Shown piece by piece: positions 6,640 through 59,735 of a stretch of 64,000 nt of DNA. A program made the position numbers and the translations under genes. The notes under the pieces are model-generated. The model saw only the letters and a list, made by a program, of their open reading frames with translations, was not told the origin of the DNA and made no database searches. Source of the DNA: Calliopum simillimum (Eukaryota; Arthropoda; Insecta; Diptera; Lauxaniidae); assembly GCA_951812925.1 (NCBI GenBank), contig OX638369.1, positions 25,015,329-25,079,328 on the forward strand, given 5' to 3'. The stretch's first letter is position 1, and every line of letters starts with the position of its first letter.

Positions 6640-7003
6640 AAAGAGGATACAGCACAAAAAGAAAGACAAAAAGCTGACTGACACAGACTCAAAAAACTTG
6701 TAAAAAAGATCCAGATATTTCTACAATGCTCTTGGGATCTCTCCAAAAGTACGCTTCTCAGACACAAAATTCTGTGAGTTAAAAGTAAAAATTTTGAGGC
6801 TACAAATGAATCAAGCCAATTTCTGATACCATGTTCTGAAGTGAAGCGTATCCCGGTGAGAGCGTTTTGCATAGACCGAAATAAATGATAGTCGGACGGG
6901 GCAAGGTTCGAGCCAAAACTTCCCATCCAATATGTTTCAAATAGTTTTTAACCGGTCTTCCAACATGTGGCCGATCGTTGTCATGTTGAAAAATTATGAC
7001 TTC
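6640..7003 (-). pseudogene. mariner (DD34D-type) transposase remnant, C-terminal part
   Basis: Minus-strand remnant of a cut-and-paste transposase of the Tc1/mariner superfamily. From 7003 downward it encodes a segment with the second catalytic Asp (QHDNDRPHVGRPVKNYLKHI), then, in another frame, the third catalytic block NLAPSDYHLFRSMQNAL. The family's usual Pro-rich stretch between them is deleted and the frame shifts near 6910. After the conserved block (…RFTSEHGIRNWLDSFVASK) the product drifts into unrelated sequence, so the normal C-terminus is lost. The upstream part with the HTH domain and first Asp falls in the assembly gap. It cannot encode an active enzyme. It is unrelated in detail to the intact DD41D mariner at 43.6 kb. 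Confidence 0.85.
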
Positions 7004-7004
7004 G

Positions 7005-7204
7005 NNNNNNNNNNNNNNNNNNNNNNNNNNNNNNNNNNNNNNNNNNNNNNNNNNNNNNNNNNNNNNNNNNNNNNNNNNNNNNNNNNNNNNNNNNNNNNNN
7101 NNNNNNNNNNNNNNNNNNNNNNNNNNNNNNNNNNNNNNNNNNNNNNNNNNNNNNNNNNNNNNNNNNNNNNNNNNNNNNNNNNNNNNNNNNNNNNNNNNNN
7201 NNNN
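7005..7204. other. Assembly gap (200 N)
   Basis: Exactly 200 undetermined bases between the mariner remnant and the octamer satellite. The round size marks a gap of unknown true length, so the array may be longer than shown. Confidence 0.98.
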
Positions 7205-10200
7205 AATAAATGAATAAATGAATAAATGAATAAATGAATAAATGAATAAATGAATAAATGAATAAATGAATAAATGAATAAATGAATAAATGAATAAATG
7301 AATAAATGAATAAATGAATAAATGAATAAATGAATAAATGAATAAATGAATAAATGAATAAATGAATAAATGAATAAATGAATAAATGAATAAATGAATA
7401 AATGAATAAATGAATAAATGAATAAATGAATAAATGAATAAATGAATAAATGAATAAATGAATAAATGAATAAATGAATAAATGAATAAATGAATAAATG
7501 AATAAATGAATAAATGAATAAATGAATAAATGAATAAATGAATAAATGAATAAATGAATAAATGAATAAATGAATAAATGAATAAATGAATAAATGAATA
7601 AATGAATAAATGAATAAATGAATAAATGAATAAATGAATAAATGAATAAATGAATAAATGAATAAATGAATAAATGAATAAATGAATAAATGAATAAATG
7701 AATAAATGAATAAATGAATAAATGAATAAATGAATAAATGAATAAATGAATAAATGAATAAATGAATAAATGAATAAATGAATAAATGAATAAATGAATA
7801 AATGAATAAATGAATAAATGAATAAATGAATAAATGAATAAATGAATAAATGAATAAATGAATAAATGAATAAATGAATAAATGAATAAATGAATAAATG
7901 AATAAATGAATAAATGAATAAATGAATAAATGAATAAATGAATAAATGAATAAATGAATAAATGAATAAATGAATAAATGAATAAATGAATAAATGAATA
8001 AATGAATAAATGAATAAATGAATAAATGAATAAATGAATAAATGAATAAATGAATAAATGAATAAATGAATAAATGAATAAATGAATAAATGAATAAATG
8101 AATAAATGAATAAATGAATAAATGAATAAATGAATAAATGAATAAATGAATAAATGAATAAATGAATAAATGAATAAATGAATAAATGAATAAATGAATA
8201 AATGAATAAATGAATAAATGAATAAATGAATAAATGAATAAATGAATAAATGAATAAATGAATAAATGAATAAATGAATAAATGAATAAATGAATAAATG
8301 AATAAATGAATAAATGAATAAATGAATAAATGAATAAATGAATAAATGAATAAATGAATAAATGAATAAATGAATAAATGAATAAATGAATAAATGAATA
8401 AATGAATAAATGAATAAATGAATAAATGAATAAATGAATAAATGAATAAATGAATAAATGAATAAATGAATAAATGAATAAATGAATAAATGAATAAATG
8501 AATAAATGAATAAATGAATAAATGAATAAATGAATAAATGAATAAATGAATAAATGAATAAATGAATAAATGAATAAATGAATAAATGAATAAATGAATA
8601 AATGAATAAATGAATAAATGAATAAATGAATAAATGAATAAATGAATAAATGAATAAATGAATAAATGAATAAATGAATAAATGAATAAATGAATAAATG
8701 AATAAATGAATAAATGAATAAATGAATAAATGAATAAATGAATAAATGAATAAATGAATAAATGAATAAATGAATAAATGAATAAATGAATAAATGAATA
8801 AATGAATAAATGAATAAATGAATAAATGAATAAATGAATAAATGAATAAATGAATAAATGAATAAATGAATAAATGAATAAATGAATAAATGAATAAATG
8901 AATAAATGAATAAATGAATAAATGAATAAATGAATAAATGAATAAATGAATAAATGAATAAATGAATAAATGAATAAATGAATAAATGAATAAATGAATA
9001 AATGAATAAATGAATAAATGAATAAATGAATAAATGAATAAATGAATAAATGAATAAATGAATAAATGAATAAATGAATAAATGAATAAATGAATAAATG
9101 AATAAATGAATAAATGAATAAATGAATAAATGAATAAATGAATAAATGAATAAATGAATAAATGAATAAATGAATAAATGAATAAATGAATAAATGAATA
9201 AATGAATAAATGAATAAATGAATAAATGAATAAATGAATAAATGAATAAATGAATAAATGAATAAATGAATAAATGAATAAATGAATAAATGAATAAATG
9301 AATAAATGAATAAATGAATAAATGAATAAATGAATAAATGAATAAATGAATAAATGAATAAATGAATAAATGAATAAATGAATAAATGAATAAATGAATA
9401 AATGAATAAATGAATAAATGAATAAATGAATAAATGAATAAATGAATAAATGAATAAATGAATAAATGAATAAATGAATAAATGAATAAATGAATAAATG
9501 AATAAATGAATAAATGAATAAATGAATAAATGAATAAATGAATAAATGAATAAATGAATAAATGAATAAATGAATAAATGAATAAATGAATAAATGAATA
9601 AATGAATAAATGAATAAATGAATAAATGAATAAATGAATAAATGAATAAATGAATAAATGAATAAATGAATAAATGAATAAATGAATAAATGAATAAATG
9701 AATAAATGAATAAATGAATAAATGAATAAATGAATAAATGAATAAATGAATAAATGAATAAATGAATAAATGAATAAATGAATAAATGAATAAATGAATA
9801 AATGAATAAATGAATAAATGAATAAATGAATAAATGAATAAATGAATAAATGAATAAATGAATAAATGAATAAATGAATAAATGAATAAATGAATAAATG
9901 AATAAATGAATAAATGAATAAATGAATAAATGAATAAATGAATAAATGAATAAATGAATAAATGAATAAATGAATAAATGAATAAATGAATAAATGAATA
10001 AATGAATAAATGAATAAATGAATAAATGAATAAATGAATAAATGAATAAATGAATAAATGAATAAATGAATAAATGAATAAATGAATAAATGAATAAATG
10101 AATAAATGAATAAATGAATAAATGAATAAATGAATAAATGAATAAATGAATAAATGAATAAATGAATAAATGAATAAATGAATAAATGAATAAATGAATA

Positions 10201-11531
10201 AATGAATAAATGAATAAATGAATAAATGAATAAATGAATAAATGAATAAATGAATAAATGAATAAATGAATAAATGAATAAATGAATAAATGAATAAATG
10301 AATAAATGAATAAATGAATAAATGAATAAATGAATAAATGAATAAATGAATAAATGAATAAATGAATAAATGAATAAATGAATAAATGAATAAATGAATA
10401 AATGAATAAATGAATAAATGAATAAATGAATAAATGAATAAATGAATAAATGAATAAATGAATAAATGAATAAATGAATAAATGAATAAATGAATAAATG
10501 AATAAATGAATAAATGAATAAATGAATAAATGAATAAATGAATAAATGAATAAATGAATAAATGAATAAATGAATAAATGAATAAATGAATAAATGAATA
10601 AATGAATAAATGAATAAATGAATAAATGAATAAATGAATAAATGAATAAATGAATAAATGAATAAATGAATAAATGAATAAATGAATAAATGAATAAATG
10701 AATAAATCAATAAATCAATAAATGAATAAATGAATAAATGAATAAATGAATAAATGAATAAATGAATAAATGAATAAATGAATAAATGAATAAATGAATA
10801 AATGAATAAATGAATAAATGAATAAATGAATAAATCAATAAATCAATAAATGAATAAATGAATAAATGAATAAATGAATAAATGAATAAATGAATAAATG
10901 AATAAATGAATAAATGAATAAATGAATAAATGAATAAATGAATAAATGAATAAATGAATAAATGAATAAATGAATAAATGAATAAATGAATAAATGAATA
11001 AATGAATAAATGAATAAATGAATAAATGAATAAATGAATAAATGAATAAATGAATAAATGAATAAATGAATAAATGAATAAATGAATAAATGAATAAATG
11101 AATAAATGAATAAATGAATAAATGAATAAATGAATAAATGAATAAATGAATAAATGAATAAATGAATAAATGAATAAATGAATAAATGAATAAATGAATA
11201 AATGAATAAATGAATAAATGAATAAATGAATAAATGAATAAATGAATAAATGAATAAATGAATAAATGAATAAATGAATAAATGAATAAATGAATAAATG
11301 AATAAATGAATAAATGAATAAATGAATAAATGAATAAATGAATAAATGAATAAATGAATAAATGAATAAATGAATAAATGAATAAATGAATAAATGAATA
11401 AATGAATAAATGAATAAATGAATAAATGAATAAATGAATAAATGAATAAATGAATAAATGAATAAATGAATAAATGAATAAATGAATAAATGAATAAATG
11501 AATAAATGAATAAATGAATAAATGAATAAAT
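7205..11531. repeat. Octamer satellite (AATAAATG)n, main array
   Basis: About 4.3 kb, roughly 540 uninterrupted copies of the 8-mer AATAAATG. The only variants seen are G-to-C changes at 10708, 10716, 10836 and 10844. The minus strand lacks stops and gives an artificial Ser-Phe-Ile-His-Leu-Phe-Ile-Tyr polypeptide; that is not a gene. The left edge is the assembly gap and the right edge is abrupt. Confidence 0.98.
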
Positions 11532-11956
11532 GTGTAAAGACGTAATAGTTTTTACGTCCCCGAAGTATAAAATTAAAATCAAAGACCTTGCAAAATAAAA
11601 CGCGTGGTTAAACTTCAAATAAAATTTTATTATCAACACGATCTCGTAATTTAAATGCTAAACGAAATCTAATCTACTTGCTCAAAAGCTATCTAGTAGC
11701 AAGTCATTACTTATGCTAAAATTTTCGAAAGAGTTAAGCATCAGAAAATAAAAAGAGCAAAAGAATTCAATGAACTGTTATATTTTTGCAAATGCACAAA
11801 AAAAAAAAAAAAAATAAGAAGCTTACACTGTCTAACAAAAGATTATATTTTGCAAATAAAAAATTAAAGAAATTCAATCATCAATTTAAATCTAGTAAAT
11901 TAAAAGAAAATAAATTTAAATAGTAAGCAACTTAAATTCTCGTCTAAAGCGCAACA
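11532..11956. other. Non-repetitive interruption of the octamer satellite
   Basis: About 425 bp of AT-rich unique sequence between two blocks of the same satellite. No ORF, TIR or target duplication was found. It may be an insertion or a non-satellite segment flanked by expansion. Confidence 0.7.
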
Positions 11957-12530
11957 AAATGAATAAATGAATAAATGAATAAATGAATAAATGAATAAAT
12001 GAATAAATGAATAAATGAATAAATGAATAAATGAATAAATGAATAAATGAATAAATGAATAAATGAATAAATGAATAAATGAATAAATGAATAAATGAAT
12101 AAATGAATAAATGAATAAATGAATAAATGAATAAATGAATAAATGAATAAATGAATAAATGAATAAATGAATAAATGAATAAATGAATAAATGAATAAAT
12201 GAATAAATGAATAAATGAATAAATGAATAAATGAATAAATGAATAAATGAATAAATGAATAAATGAATAAATGAATAAATGAATAAATGAATAAATGAAT
12301 AAATGAATAAATGAATAAATGAATAAATGAATAAATGAATAAATGAATAAATGAATAAATGAATAAATGAATAAATGAATAAATGAATAAATGAATAAAT
12401 GAATAAATGAATAAATGAATAAATGAATAAATGAATAAATGAATAAATGAATAAATTAATAAATGAAAAAATGAATCAATGAATCAATGAATAAATGAAT
12501 GAATTCATTTTTCGATGAATAAATAAATGT
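11957..12530. repeat. Octamer satellite, second block with decaying right edge
   Basis: About 63 perfect AATAAATG units to about 12455, then progressively mutated units (AATTAATAAATG, AAAAAATG, AATCAATG) to 12545. Decay at the array edge is typical of satellites homogenised from the interior. Confidence 0.95.
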
Positions 12531-21710: not shown

Positions 21711-22227
21711 ATAAAAATATTCAAAAACTTAATTTTTAATTGAAATTTTACGTCTTTCGCCACAAAGTCTCATCAGACTATTGTTTTTTTTTTTTTGGAT
21801 ATAATTTTAATTATTTTAATTTTACTAAATTAATAACAATTGAAAAATTGCAAGTTGAATATCTTTTGTGCTAGGTCTGGGCCGGAGTTGAACCGAGGAC
21901 CTCACGGTTGCTACACTGAGAAAAGAGTGTGTTTCCCTCAAAGAAATATATTTGGTTGAATATTTTATAAAATATTTGTTAATAGTTAACAAATTTTGGT
22001 CAATATTAATATGCCTTTAATTGGACCTTAAAATGTTGTTGATTGGGCCAAACATGATATCTGTTTGATGGAATGTCAAATATTTGCTATAATTTAAAAA
22101 AAAACCTTGTCTGGGGTTCGAGTGCATTCAAAAAAATAAAATAATCAAAAAAAAAAAAAAACATCATAAGATATAATATACGCTATAAAAGTAAAAAAAT
22201 AAAATAATAATTAAAAAAAAAAACACT

Positions 22228-35141: not shown

Positions 35142-35842
35142 AAAATTAATACTTATAAGCTAAGAAATGGACAATTTTGTAAAGCAGTATAGATCGATTG
35201 TACGTATTAAAATGAACAGAAAATCATAACTCAAAAATACCAACTTGATTTGAGTTCTTATGAAAAGTAATTTTGATTTCTTTCCATGAAAAATATTTTG
35301 GAAGGTTAAAAAAGCAGGCCATGGAGCGATTTTCGTAACCTATGTACTAAAAAAGTACTAAAAATATGCTTTTTGCCACATTCAAAACATTATACTTATT
35401 ACCTAATTCAATATTTTTCCAAAGTTGATCTTAACATAAAATTCGGCTAAGAAACATCGAAGTTGTGGATAATTTTGTGAAGCAGTATTTGCCAATATTT
35501 GACGATTTCGTAATTTTTAAAGGTCGCTACCCCCAAAATTGACAAAAAATTCCCTGAAGCAAACCATGAACTAAATTTCTATGAAATCCGATACGGTCAA
35601 TTCAAATCTTGTTACGTCAGTCATGGAATGACTGAATTTTAAGAACAATATTGAGAACAAAACTTTCTTCACCGGAATTTATGGTCCACGGGTTTTGCCG
35701 AAATCAAAAATCCTGAAATTAACCAAAATACATGAAGTTAAATAACAGACAACAGAGTATGTTATATTGGTATATCCGAAAACAATCTTCCCTTATATGA
35801 CCCAGCTTTTAAGAAAATTTTTTTTTATATATTATTTAACGG
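35142..35842. repeat. Dispersed-repeat debris
   Basis: 35155-35500 shares GGACAATTTTGTRAAGCAGT and GCAGGCCATGGAG…GTACTAAAAAAGTA segments with 59940-59995 and 61290-61405. 35760-35825 (TATATCCGAAAACAATCTTC…ATATGACCCA) matches 5508-5560. Fragments of one or two unnamed families; no ORF. Confidence 0.55.
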
Positions 35843-35964
35843 AAATTAATTTTTAATTGAACTTTTAGTCATATATTTGCAAAGATCGATTTAAATATAA
35901 ATCTATCAATGCATTTTCTAACACATAATTATGACAAATTAAGGAACGGATTAAAAACACGGCT

Positions 35965-36011
35965 ATAGTGACATATGTTTCGTCTTTCGCCACAAAGACT
36001 CATCAGACTAT
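35965..36011 (-). ncRNA. Hammerhead ribozyme (full consensus)
   Basis: Minus-strand RNA has CUGAUGA (36006-36000), then a 6-bp stem II GUCUUU/AAAGAC with loop GUGGCG, then GAAA, then a stem III made of the self-complementary ACAUAUGU, then C17 at 35970 (predicted cleavage after it). Stem I is ACUAU paired with AUAGU flanking the motif (5 bp). All conserved core nucleotides are present. Stem III is very short (3 bp, 2-nt loop), as in other animal type I hammerheads that may act as dimers. Confidence 0.9.
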
Positions 36012-36074
36012 TTTTGTTGTAATTTTACTAAATTAATTATAATTGAAAAATTTCAAGTTGAAAAACTTTTGTGT

Positions 36075-36160
36075 TTTGGTCTAAGCGGGAGTTGAACCAA
36101 GGACCTCTCGGTTGGTAGCACAAGTCGTTAGACCAGTGCACCAGCCTTGCCCGGCTGCGA
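36075..36160 (-). pseudogene. tRNA-like promoter segment of copy B
   Basis: On the minus strand TGGTGCACTGGTCTAACGAC resembles a tRNA D-arm/A-box and GGTCCTTGGTTCAACTCCCG a T-arm/B-box. The layout resembles a tRNA-Val-like gene (GAGAGGTCC before the T-arm), but the acceptor stem does not pair. It probably acts, or acted, as a pol III promoter for the element. Confidence 0.6.
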
Positions 36161-36199
36161 AGCAAATATATGACTAAAAGTTCAATTAAAAATTAATTT

Positions 36200-36430
36200 T
36201 CAATATATAAATGAAGCATTTATTTTATTACTCCTCGCTTTGTTACCCAAAATAATCAAAGCCTGAATGTGGTGAAAAAACGAGAACAGCTGAAAGTGTT
36301 ATGCCAATAAGCTACAATCGAAAGCAATAAAATATAAGACGAATTTAATTTGTGGTTAAAAGCAACGATAAGAAATGTCTCAGGGAAATAAATTGTTTTA
36401 TGAGTTTACAGCTCACTTCTTCTCTATTTA
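36200..36430. other. Host-like spacer
   Basis: No repeats recognised. It precedes a candidate promoter and exon. Confidence 0.4.
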
Positions 36431-43531: not shown

Positions 43532-44814
43532 AAGGGTGTTTTTTTTAGAGAATTGTTTTTCGAATAGAGATTTTGTGGTCAAATCTGGCAACTCTAATGT
43601 CATTTATGTTCAGCCATTTCATCATGAACAGGTTGACAAAAGAACAACGCTTGCAAATCGTGCAAATTTATTTCGAAAATAATGGTTCAGTTCGCGAAGT
43701 TTACCGCAAGCTCCGTCCATTTTATGGTCGACATAATCGTCCATCAGAGCAATTAATTCGGTTAACCATGGATCGTTTTCGCACTACGTTTACTCTATGT
43801 GATAATACGCATCCGCAGAGACGTCGAACAGTGCGCACCGAAGAAACAATTGCCGCTGTAGAGCAAAATGTTGAAGAGGACCCGAATGAATCGATTCGCC
43901 ACCGTGCACAGCAATTGGAGCTTTGTCCATCAACTTTATGGAAGATTTTGCGCAAAGATCTTGGCTTGCGACCTTACAAGATCCAGCTTGTGCAAGAATT
44001 AAAGCCGCGAGACCATGCAATGCGTCGTGATTTTGGTGTATGGGCCGAAAATGAGATTGATCTCGATGCTGATTTTCATCGCAAAATTTTGTTCAGTGAT
44101 GAGGCTCATTTTTGGTTGAATGGCTACGTCAACAAGCAAAATTGCCGCATTTGGAGTGAAGAGAATCCACATGAGACCCTTGAGACGCCATTACATCCAC
44201 AAAAACTGACTGTTTGGTGTGCTCTATGGGCTGGTGGAGTCATTGGGCCATACTTCTTCCGAAATAATGCTGAAGATTCAGTTACCGTTAATGGAGACCG
44301 GTATAGAGCCATGATAACCGACTATTTTGTTCCCGAATTGGATGGCATGAATGTGGATGAGTTGTGGTTCCAACAAGACGGCGCTACATGCCACACAGCG
44401 CACGTCACAATCGATTTATTGAAGGAAACATTCGATGAGCGCATAATTTCGCGGAATGGACCTGTCAATTGGCCACCAAGATCGTGTGATTTGACACCAT
44501 TGGATTATTTTCTTTGGGGATATGTGAAGTCGCTCGTCTACGCCAACAAACCAGAAACGTTAGGGGACTTGAAAGCCAACATTCGTGGCGTTATTGCCGA
44601 CATACGGCCCCATATGTTCGAAAAAGTGGTTGAAAATTGGACCTGTAGAATTGGCTTTATTCGAGCCAGCCGCGGCGGCTACATACCCGAAATCATATTT
44701 AAACATTAATGGCATAAAATTATCCTTCAAATAAAGCCAAATTGATGGACATTAAAACGATTTTCTTGTGTTTTATTTCAATTCGAAGTTTTATACCTCT
44801 AAAAAAACACCCTT
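43532..44814 (+). mobile_element. rosa-type mariner transposon, complete
   Basis: 1283 bp flanked by TA duplications (43530-43531, 44815-44816). Ends AAGGGTGTTTTTTTTAGAG and CTCTAAAAAAACACCCTT are inverted, differing by one T. It contains an uninterrupted transposase gene. It sits in the central loop of the palindromic host element. Confidence 0.93.
43624..44709 (+). CDS. Mariner DD41D (rosa-type) transposase, intact
   Basis: Transposase that cuts the element at its terminal inverted repeats and inserts it at TA sites in the nucleus. 361 residues from the Met that begins MNRLTKEQRLQIVQ, the start usual in this family; the same frame is open 17 codons further up, without support. Residues 1-110 form the paired HTH DNA-binding region. 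LVQELKPRD (122-130) stands where mariners have WVPHEL. Catalytic triad: D159 in FSDEAHFW, D252 in WFQQDGATCHTA, D294 in DLTPLDYFLWG. There are 92 residues between the first two and 41 between the last two, which defines DD41D. It ends EIIFKH. No stop, frameshift or lost catalytic residue is seen, and both TIRs are present, so it could be active or very recently active. AATAAA lies at 44730, just after the stop. Confidence 0.95.
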   Translation: MNRLTKEQRLQIVQIYFENNGSVREVYRKLRPFYGRHNRPSEQLIRLTMDRFRTTFTLCDNTHPQRRRTVRTEETIAAVEQNVEEDPNESIRHRAQQLELCPSTLWKILRKDLGLRPYKIQLVQELKPRDHAMRRDFGVWAENEIDLDADFHRKILFSDEAHFWLNGYVNKQNCRIWSEENPHETLETPLHPQKLTVWCALWAGGVIGPYFFRNNAEDSVTVNGDRYRAMITDYFVPELDGMNVDELWFQQDGATCHTAHVTIDLLKETFDERIISRNGPVNWPPRSCDLTPLDYFLWGYVKSLVYANKPETLGDLKANIRGVIADIRPHMFEKVVENWTCRIGFIRASRGGYIPEIIFKH

Positions 44815-58639: not shown

Positions 58640-58910
58640 AGCCGCCCAATCTGGAACAGACGCTGACCTGGGAGCCGCCCACTCTGGGTCAGACGCTTCA
58701 GGATTTTGACAAGATGCTTATTTTAAGGCGGCATCGACTCGCCTTGTCAGTGCCAGTTACGGGCATTGTGGGTTTTCTTTCAAGGCGCAACGCTGTCCAA
58801 CGCTACGCCCTTCCACACCCTGGCTGGTCACCCGCTTTTAGTCGCCTCTTCTGACAGGCATGCTTACCTCGGGCATATTCTGACCCCTTACCCGCAGGTA
58901 AGGCCAAAAG
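58640..58910 (+). repeat. GC-richer retroelement-flank sequence
   Basis: A short tandem repeat (GCCGCCCAATCTGGAACAGA / GCCGCCCACTCTGGGTCAGA) and a TCGCCTCTTCTGACAGGCAT stretch that looks like common retroelement sequence directly upstream of the RT fragment. Function unknown. Confidence 0.4.
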
Positions 58911-59735
58911 GGGTATCCAATGGAACTTTACCGAACATCTGGTAGATCTCGACTACGCTGACGACATCTGCCTCTTATCGTCCAAACATTCAGATATGCA
59001 AAGCAAAATTGAAGACCTTGTCTTGGAATCACAAAAGGCCGGCCTAAAAATCAACGTATCCAAGACTAAAAGCAAGAAGCTAAACGCAAGCAATGACATC
59101 ATGTTTAGAGCTGGCAGTGATGACATCGGAAACGTCGATAGCTTCACGTATTTTCGCAGCATTATCTCCATGGATGGTGGAGCAAAAGAGGATATCAACT
59201 CAAGAATAGCAAAAGCAAAAGGCGCGTTTGCTCAACTGAACAAAATATGGTCTTCTTCCGTTATATCCACCAAAACGAGAGTGCGCATTTTTGATTCGAA
59301 TGTGAAATCGGTTTTGTTATATGGGTGCGAAACGTGGCTTGTTACTGAACAACTAACGAACAAGCTGCAAGTATTCGTCAACAAATGCTAAAGGCGAATA
59401 CTAAAGGTTGGGTGGCCTCGCACTATATCAAATGCCGAGCTACATCAAAAATGCAATCAGAGGGCTATAGCAATCGAGGTCAAGCTGCGCAAATGGAGAT
59501 GGATTGGTCACACTCTCCGGAAACCACACAGCGAAGTTTGTCGCCAGGCTCTTGAGTGGAATCCACAAGGCAGTAGAGGACGTGGTAGACCCTAAACCAA
59601 CTGGAAGAGGTGGTCGCTGGAAAAGGAAATCCAAGAATCGGGAAAGTCGTGGCAAGAGATTAAAGTCATCGCAAAGGATCGTGACAAATGGAGAGATTTC
59701 ATATTGGCCCTATGCTCCTCCTAGGAGTTAAAGGA
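58905..59735 (+). pseudogene. Non-LTR retrotransposon (LINE) reverse transcriptase, C-terminal fragment
   Basis: Remnant of a LINE reverse transcriptase, starting in palm motif C: DLDYADDICLLS at about 58947-58982 with the YADD catalytic box intact. The thumb follows (SQKAGLKINVSKTK, FTYFRSIISMDGGAKEDIN, GAFAQLNKIWSSS, SVLLYGCETW). An in-frame stop (59389-59391, after FVNKC) interrupts it. It resumes RRILKVGWPRTISN … KWRWIGHTLRKP … QALEWNPQGSRGRGRP, then needs one frameshift near 59600 to reach KVIAKDRDKWRDFILALCSS and the stop. An (ACAT)n tail ends it at 59763. The 5' part, including fingers and endonuclease, is absent. Clade not assigned. Confidence 0.88.

Follow-up and report, generated by a model that had tools for sequence, protein, structure and literature searches.

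Introduction

The closest described systems are the metazoan retrozymes, tandem repeats with type I hammerhead ribozymes (HHRs) in animals, insects being mentioned among their hosts (Cervera and de la Pena 2020, PMC7229834). In that paper the described repeats measure 150-450 bp, circles of 150 to over 1000 nt are allowed for, circular RNAs are shown in several species and Penelope-like elements (PLEs) are considered strong candidates for the movers of animal retrozymes (PMC7229834). Retrozymes seem to be promoterless according to a 2020 review, which describes the animal ones as having no motif that would name an autonomous mover (PMC7761336). In plant LTR retrozymes (PMC4918200), as the same review outlines, the type III HHRs sit in LTRs, and both a PPT and a tRNA-Met primer site are present (PMC7761336). 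SM-alpha of Schistosoma is SINE-like and has a type I HHR (Ferbeyre et al. 1998 as cited in PMC8490949), the length given there for its W36.2 form being 335 bp (PMC8490949).

For PLEs, the account of the rotifer elements includes an inverted pLTR, an optional 31-bp tail and target-site duplications (TSDs) of 8-10 bp (PMC3846280). The protein of an Anolis PLE cuts and extends both strands of AT-rich targets; synthesis begins at two sites of an AC-rich stem-loop, which explains the tail, and in vitro it inserts without need for HHR cleavage (PMC11167929).

Here we describe a repeat family of the fly Calliopum simillimum, encountered in a 64-kb stretch of its genome (the window), that combines a type I HHR with a tRNA-like head. 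The window site is best read as an old, 5′-truncated insertion of an animal (non-LTR) retrozyme family.

Results

A complete hammerhead motif and a tRNA-like head in the window

The features of the window copy are as follows.

35843..36163, minus strand: right (direct) arm, a 5′-truncated element (L001 sense strand 1538-1858)
36162..36211, plus strand: left (inverted) arm, a reversed copy of the element 3′ end (from copy comparison)
36078..36152, minus strand: tRNA-like head (read from the sequence; same part in other copies)
36133-36143, minus strand: A box, read by eye
36088-36098, minus strand: B box, read by eye
36061-36065 and 36046-36050, minus strand: two T5 runs, possible pol III stops, between the tRNA part and the HHR
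35965..36011, minus strand: type I HHR motif (motif read, strict scan and copy comparison)

The HHR motif is complete, running from stem I to stem I with the full core. On the minus strand from 36011 to 35965 it reads AUAGU-CUGAUGA-GUCUUU-GUGGCG-AAAGAC-GAA-ACAUAUGU-C-ACUAU, with a 6-bp stem II, a 5-bp stem I, C17 and the palindromic ACAUAUGU as stem III. The cut site is GUC, with the cut predicted after C17 (35970). The claim of an earlier sequence-only reading, that all conserved hammerhead positions are present on this strand, was confirmed. A strict HHR scan of the window found this motif as its sole match, and the same scan gave no match in 20 first-order Markov simulations of the window.

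Covariance models were less responsive. Rfam gave no match in the window at gathering scores; at a loose threshold the motif was matched by RAGATH-1-hammerhead (18.8 bits; gathering 56.3) and Hammerhead_3 (17.3 bits; gathering 48.5), so that the Rfam check proposed for the minus strand returned matches but did not reach a gathering score. A young unit of the family, in L064, scored 21.5 bits with Hammerhead_1 (E 0.017; gathering 34), and the Rfam type I consensus likewise has a loopless palindromic stem III in its alignment. A genome-wide run of RF00163, in which 73 of its 75100 candidates were scored, gave no match at E<=1, and the exact 30-nt HHR pattern had no match in viral contigs. When folded as a monomer, the 64-nt HHR consensus preferred another structure (-8.1 kcal/mol, versus -5.4 for the HHR fold). 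Two such molecules co-folded at -22.6 kcal/mol into the double hammerhead, in which they share a stem III of 8 bp, and this shared stem was kept in the dimer fold by 14/30 dispersed copies. Loop II (UGGC) is complementary to a stem I bulge (GCCG), a possible tertiary contact.

The tRNA-like part lies upstream of the HHR on the same strand, as had been proposed, and its A and B boxes are readable by eye, although ARAGORN accepted no tRNA. In a young unit the B box (399) is followed by T4 at 435, T5 at 450 and then the HHR (504). With these T4/T5 runs in between, pol III transcription from the internal boxes is expected to terminate short of the ribozyme, and a pol III transcript that extends into it is doubtful. 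SM-alpha has a pol III promoter upstream of its HHR. The corresponding layout proposed for this locus, a pol III promoter with a self-cleaving RNA, exists at the level of sequence, in the boxes and the HHR, but the T runs speak against simple pol III read-through.

Inverted ends as a feature of the window copy

The ends of the window copy are inverted repeats of 38 bp at 100% identity, or of 49 nt at 92% after extension, and correspond to the left arm (36162..36211) paired with 35832-35880. The right arm begins a little upstream of the tRNA part and runs to the short 3′ end. There is no TSD of 8 bp around the window copy, and other copies have a longer 5′ sequence. The sequence-only reading had delimited a 357-bp unit by perfect 38-bp inverted ends. 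The ends are real, but the unit is not the one so defined: the family unit is about 545 bp. Nor do inverted termini bound the unit, as the arm varies in length and occurs in 16/30 dispersed copies; the 38-bp ends are an insertion arm of the window copy, not family termini.

A degenerate second relative lies elsewhere in the window.

21745..21913, minus strand: degenerate relative, CTGATGA to stem II kept, 3′ half of the HHR missing
21717-21750, plus strand: short inverted piece beside it

Relatives with a broken HHR, here (21717-21913) and in L019 on contig C118, adjoin repeats of the kind GAGCATTTCTGGATGCGAGAGCGATGCGCATCC. L019, which lies on a repeat-rich contig, has two such copies, separated by about 475 bp and next to a PLE fragment. 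These relatives are a branch that was able to spread with an incomplete ribozyme. Three further features of the window were noted: a 386-codon open frame that by eye resembles an intact transposase (43549-44709, plus strand), a 178-codon frame that contains a YADD motif and looks by eye like part of a reverse transcriptase (58855-59391, plus strand), and a long simple-repeat region (about 6800-12480) with FIHLFIYS repeated in three frames and stretches reading X.

Dispersed copies of the family

A search of the 690 Mb genome (334 contigs) with the window element gave 1765 candidate places, and all 40 that were scored were strong. From these searches 30 distinct copies were picked by their similarity to the window copy, three duplicate loci being dropped. 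The 11-position HHR core was intact in 23/30, and in nine of the 30 the whole 47-nt HHR equalled the consensus. Ranked by conservation across the 30 copies, the HHR came 39th of 262 windows, which is good and not exceptional. Loss of the core and absence of the tRNA part across the genome had been named as the result that would speak against the sequence-only reading; the core persisted at the frequency given and the tRNA part was present in the copies read. Its description of an HHR-bearing, tRNA-headed mobile element with an SM-alpha-like layout and kinship to retrozymes thus holds.

Tandem arrays of a unit of about 545 bp

In locus L063 two HHRs lie 542 bp apart and the tail of one unit abuts the start of the next. 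A second search, with this two-HHR region as query, gave 3061 candidates. Among the best-scored 40 places, 16 contained at least two near-full units, three of these having seven, and 24 contained one. The array sample comprised 13 array or inverted-array loci (L064-L076) out of these 40. In the long arrays the units are 545-547 bp long, head-to-tail, with one HHR apiece: L064 has seven HHRs spaced exactly 545 bp, L065 has eight at 546-547 bp and L066 has eight exact copies of the 30-nt HHR core. Tandem Repeats Finder returned no rows for L064, its longest period (500) being below the unit length. The longest ATG frame of one array unit was 59 codons, with a G+C content of 31.9%, and Pfam had no match in the one frame of the window locus submitted.

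The 47-nt HHR was identical in 35/38 complete array units, and differences from the subfamily consensus occupied 0.17% of cells within the HHR versus 0.47% outside it (p = 0.09). Pairs of units from the same array differed at a mean of 2.35 positions (60 pairs, maximum 16), pairs from different arrays at 16.4 (643 pairs, minimum 0). Six arrays had three or more complete units; of their variable columns, 26 were private to one unit and a single one, a length change in an A run, was shared, in a count that omits units whose cut site missed the search pattern (e.g. two in L066). Eleven arrays formed two subfamilies that were distinct without overlap at 17 columns, leaving out L075, which fits neither, and L074, which has no complete unit. 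Variants present in all complete units of an array were found at two columns in L065 (seven units), four in L069 (two units), five in L071 (two units) and one each in L067 (three units) and L073 (two units); six arrays had none. Part of this homogeneity reflects youth, because L066, L068 and L070 have an identical consensus. That the variants are private and not shared is the pattern predicted by rolling-circle reverse transcription of one circle, and it is not predicted by transcripts of old tandem loci. Each array looks as though it had been copied from one unit or RNA circle. The HHR, the tRNA head, the tandem units and the low variation within arrays can all be read directly from the assembly.

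The direct arm started at the HHR cut site in 2/13 array loci (L072, at unit position 1; L073, at position 3), and no such start was noted among the 30 dispersed copies, a sample chosen for similarity to the window copy. In both L063 and L065 only a few bases separate the start of the leftmost direct unit from the 5′ edge of HHR stem I. This edge may possibly be a second preferred stop of reverse transcription.

Insertion arms, end zones and target duplications

Each of the 16 dispersed copies that have an arm was directly preceded by part of the element in inverted orientation. Among the best-scored 40 places (of 3061), both orientations were present in 21, and the polarity was head to head in every one. 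With unit positions counted from the cut site, 26/29 measured right ends fell into two groups about 40 nt apart, 15 of them at 125-140 and 11 at 163-182; L042, L053 and L059 ended outside both, and L057 was left out as mis-anchored. The outer ends of the left arms behaved similarly, in that 18 of the 22 readable ones lay in 126-153 or 170-184, zones which make up 7.9% of the unit and which were fixed after the right ends had been seen, the left-arm values being compiled by hand. L050, L002, L008 and L046 ended outside both zones, and L067, L073 and L076 were unreadable. Between the two end zones, at unit 148-164, there is an AC-rich stem-loop (TTAAGT-AACAC-ACTTAA).

AT-rich TSDs of at least 8 bp were present at 12/30 dispersed loci, compared with 4.6% of mismatched flank pairs, although two of the twelve (L004, L045) are merely T or A runs. 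The duplication encloses the inverted arm at several loci, among them L003, L005, L044, L062 and L063. At 11 array loci TSDs of this length were not enriched (2/11 versus 13.6% of mismatched pairs). The arms and tail ends found on arrays match those on monomers.

Penelope-like elements in the same genome

A search of the genome for GIY-YIG domains gave at least 51 matches, with 150 of 209 candidates scored. Thirty loci were read, and 26 had by eye a PLE-like frame, the exceptions being L009, L010, L011 and L018. The last three lie on small bacterial-looking contigs (C183, C104 and C171), two with long frames that look UvrC-like by eye; these contigs are probably contamination or symbionts in the assembly. 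Self-comparison detected the PLE's own reversed 3′ part upstream in 7/26 PLE loci at six places (L017, L019, L020, L028, L029, L030 and L035), a count that leaves out L013, L022, L034 and L037, where self-matches lie in flanking repeats. In L025 an inverted arm became visible by comparison with L023. Among the matches listed there were four GIY-YIG pairs of opposite orientation, the partners no more than 2.5 kb apart and head to head in each case.

C2:48.387 Mb: head-to-head GIY-YIG pair
C2:128.91 Mb: head-to-head GIY-YIG pair
C3:12.136 Mb: head-to-head GIY-YIG pair
C5:64.07 Mb: head-to-head GIY-YIG pair

L029/L030 (C2:48387135-48388166) and other pairs are near-perfect head-to-head PLE palindromes, the arms of the L030 palindrome being 1057 bp long at 99.3% identity. 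Four PLE groups (L014, L023/L026, L030/L032 and L036/L035) had HHR-like motifs in the 3′ UTR when read by eye, with an extra U before stem II in three of the four; automated HHR scans of the PLE loci flagged none. A sequence or tail common to the element and the PLE groups of this genome was sought and not found, so the link between them is one of architecture, and the argument for PLE mobilisation is carried by the element's own arms. The arm geometry, the two end zones, the target duplications and the PLE genes with similar arms are all matters of observation.

Discussion

We consider it probable that this is a tRNA-headed family of animal retrozymes that is moved in trans by PLE machinery through RNA circles made by the HHR. 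To a fuller version we give even odds: that each array came from one hammerhead-made circle, that the insertions were Penelope-written on both strands, and that retrozymes are non-autonomous partners of PLEs. Self-cleavage, RNA circles, cleavage as a dimer, a PLE as the enzyme and priming on both strands are what we infer. Tandem units of about 545 nt would be transcribed, and the type I HHRs would cut the RNA into units, probably as dimers joined by the palindromic stem III. A host RNA ligase would then close the units into circles. A PLE-type reverse transcriptase acting in trans may nick both strands of an AT-rich target and begin the cDNA at one of two sites around the AC-rich tail stem-loop; several rounds of one circle by the enzyme would give an array of a single sequence. 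Priming on both strands would leave two arms head to head, the right one long and the left one inverted and usually short, and the 38-bp inverted ends of the window copy may derive from such a left arm. Some observations run counter to this account. The HHR shows no significant excess of conservation over the remainder of the element (39 of 262; p = 0.09), the monomer does not fold best as an HHR, only 14/30 copies keep the stem III of the dimer fold, TSDs are not enriched at arrays and T runs precede the ribozyme. Automated scans flagged no HHR in the PLE loci, no sequence common to the element and the PLE groups was found, and the Anolis PLE inserts in vitro without HHR cleavage (PMC11167929).

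The A/B boxes, the 1765 candidate places and the 5′-truncated monomers with target duplications would also suit an ordinary tRNA-derived SINE, moved by a LINE and carrying the HHR as a passenger, with arrays formed by template jumps or unequal crossing-over. Such a reading would accommodate an HHR constraint that is not clearly above that of the rest of the element, as well as a relative with a broken HHR that spread too. We nevertheless find it unlikely, because inverted 3′ ends stand head to head in 21 of the best 40 places, the two end zones are common to both arms, the 3′ ends inspected as a rule showed neither poly(A) nor a simple tail, and the arrays are in phase, of at most eight units, with variants that are nearly all private. 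The arrays also bear on whether a retrozyme-like repeat now behaves mainly as a satellite, amplified as DNA by unequal crossing-over or extrachromosomal DNA circles and not through RNA circles. Recent local amplification would likewise be expected to give near-identical units, and the 11 array loci do lack TSD enrichment; but arrays carry the same arms and tail ends as monomers, and repeated crossing-over should produce variants common to several but not all units, a type represented by one of the 27 variable columns. We regard this as quite improbable.

The HHR-like sequence itself could be a chance or dead motif without catalytic role, given the weak Rfam scores and the absence of RF00163 matches at E<=1 (73 of 75100 candidates scored). 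The absence of strict matches in the 20 simulated windows and the identity of the motif in 35/38 complete young units make this very unlikely. Least credible, with hardly any weight in our assessment, is the reading as a MITE, a DNA transposon whose terminal inverted repeats would be the 38-bp ends: the perfect inverted ends of the window copy invite it, but other copies differ on the 5′ side, the inverted arm is absent from L004, L006, L007 and L047, for example, and arm length and inner end differ among copies. The TIR transposon or MITE was rejected, as copies do not share inverted termini.

On the question of which autonomous element moves animal retrozymes, the copies described here offer genome-level evidence in their Penelope-type arms and end zones and in arrays that look copied from one circle. 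Puzzling inverted ends also become a readable by-product of insertion. A defined 545-nt RNA and PLE proteins occurring in one genome make the insertion step testable.

Comparison with known systems

The sequence-only reading had put the locus forward as the best candidate for an undescribed system. That does not stand, since tandem HHR repeats are mentioned for insects and PLEs proposed as movers in the 2020 paper (PMC7229834). Among the top hits of searches of the open-licence literature there was no publication on this family, which is a weak negative. What appears new is that an animal retrozyme has a tRNA head, a unit of 545 bp and insertion arms of Penelope type that can be seen directly. 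Like the metazoan non-LTR retrozymes, it is made up of small tandem units, in dimers to multimers, each carrying a type I HHR and lacking a coding region, and at 31.9% G+C in one array unit lies below the 45% bound used for that class. Its unit of 545-547 bp is longer than the 150-450 bp of the described repeats but lies within the 150 to over 1000 nt allowed for circles (PMC7229834). It departs from them in the tRNA-like head with A and B boxes, in its visible Penelope-type arms and end zones, and in its many monomeric, truncated copies.

Compared by description alone, SM-alpha resembles the family in being SINE-like with a type I HHR and differs in host and length. Plant LTR retrozymes are likewise non-autonomous and HHR-bearing with a circular-RNA model, whereas the motif here is of type I and lies in tandem units. 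With PLEs the family shares partial tandems, head-to-head inverted repeats, 3′ ends at two sites with an optional tail, an AC-rich stem-loop and an HHR with a weak stem III; AT-rich target duplications like theirs occur at the dispersed loci and were not enriched at the 11 array loci. Unlike PLEs, it has a tRNA head, a fuller HHR and a unit without an RT/GIY-YIG gene (longest ATG frame 59 codons); as the unit has no long frame, it can be at most a non-autonomous client of PLEs.
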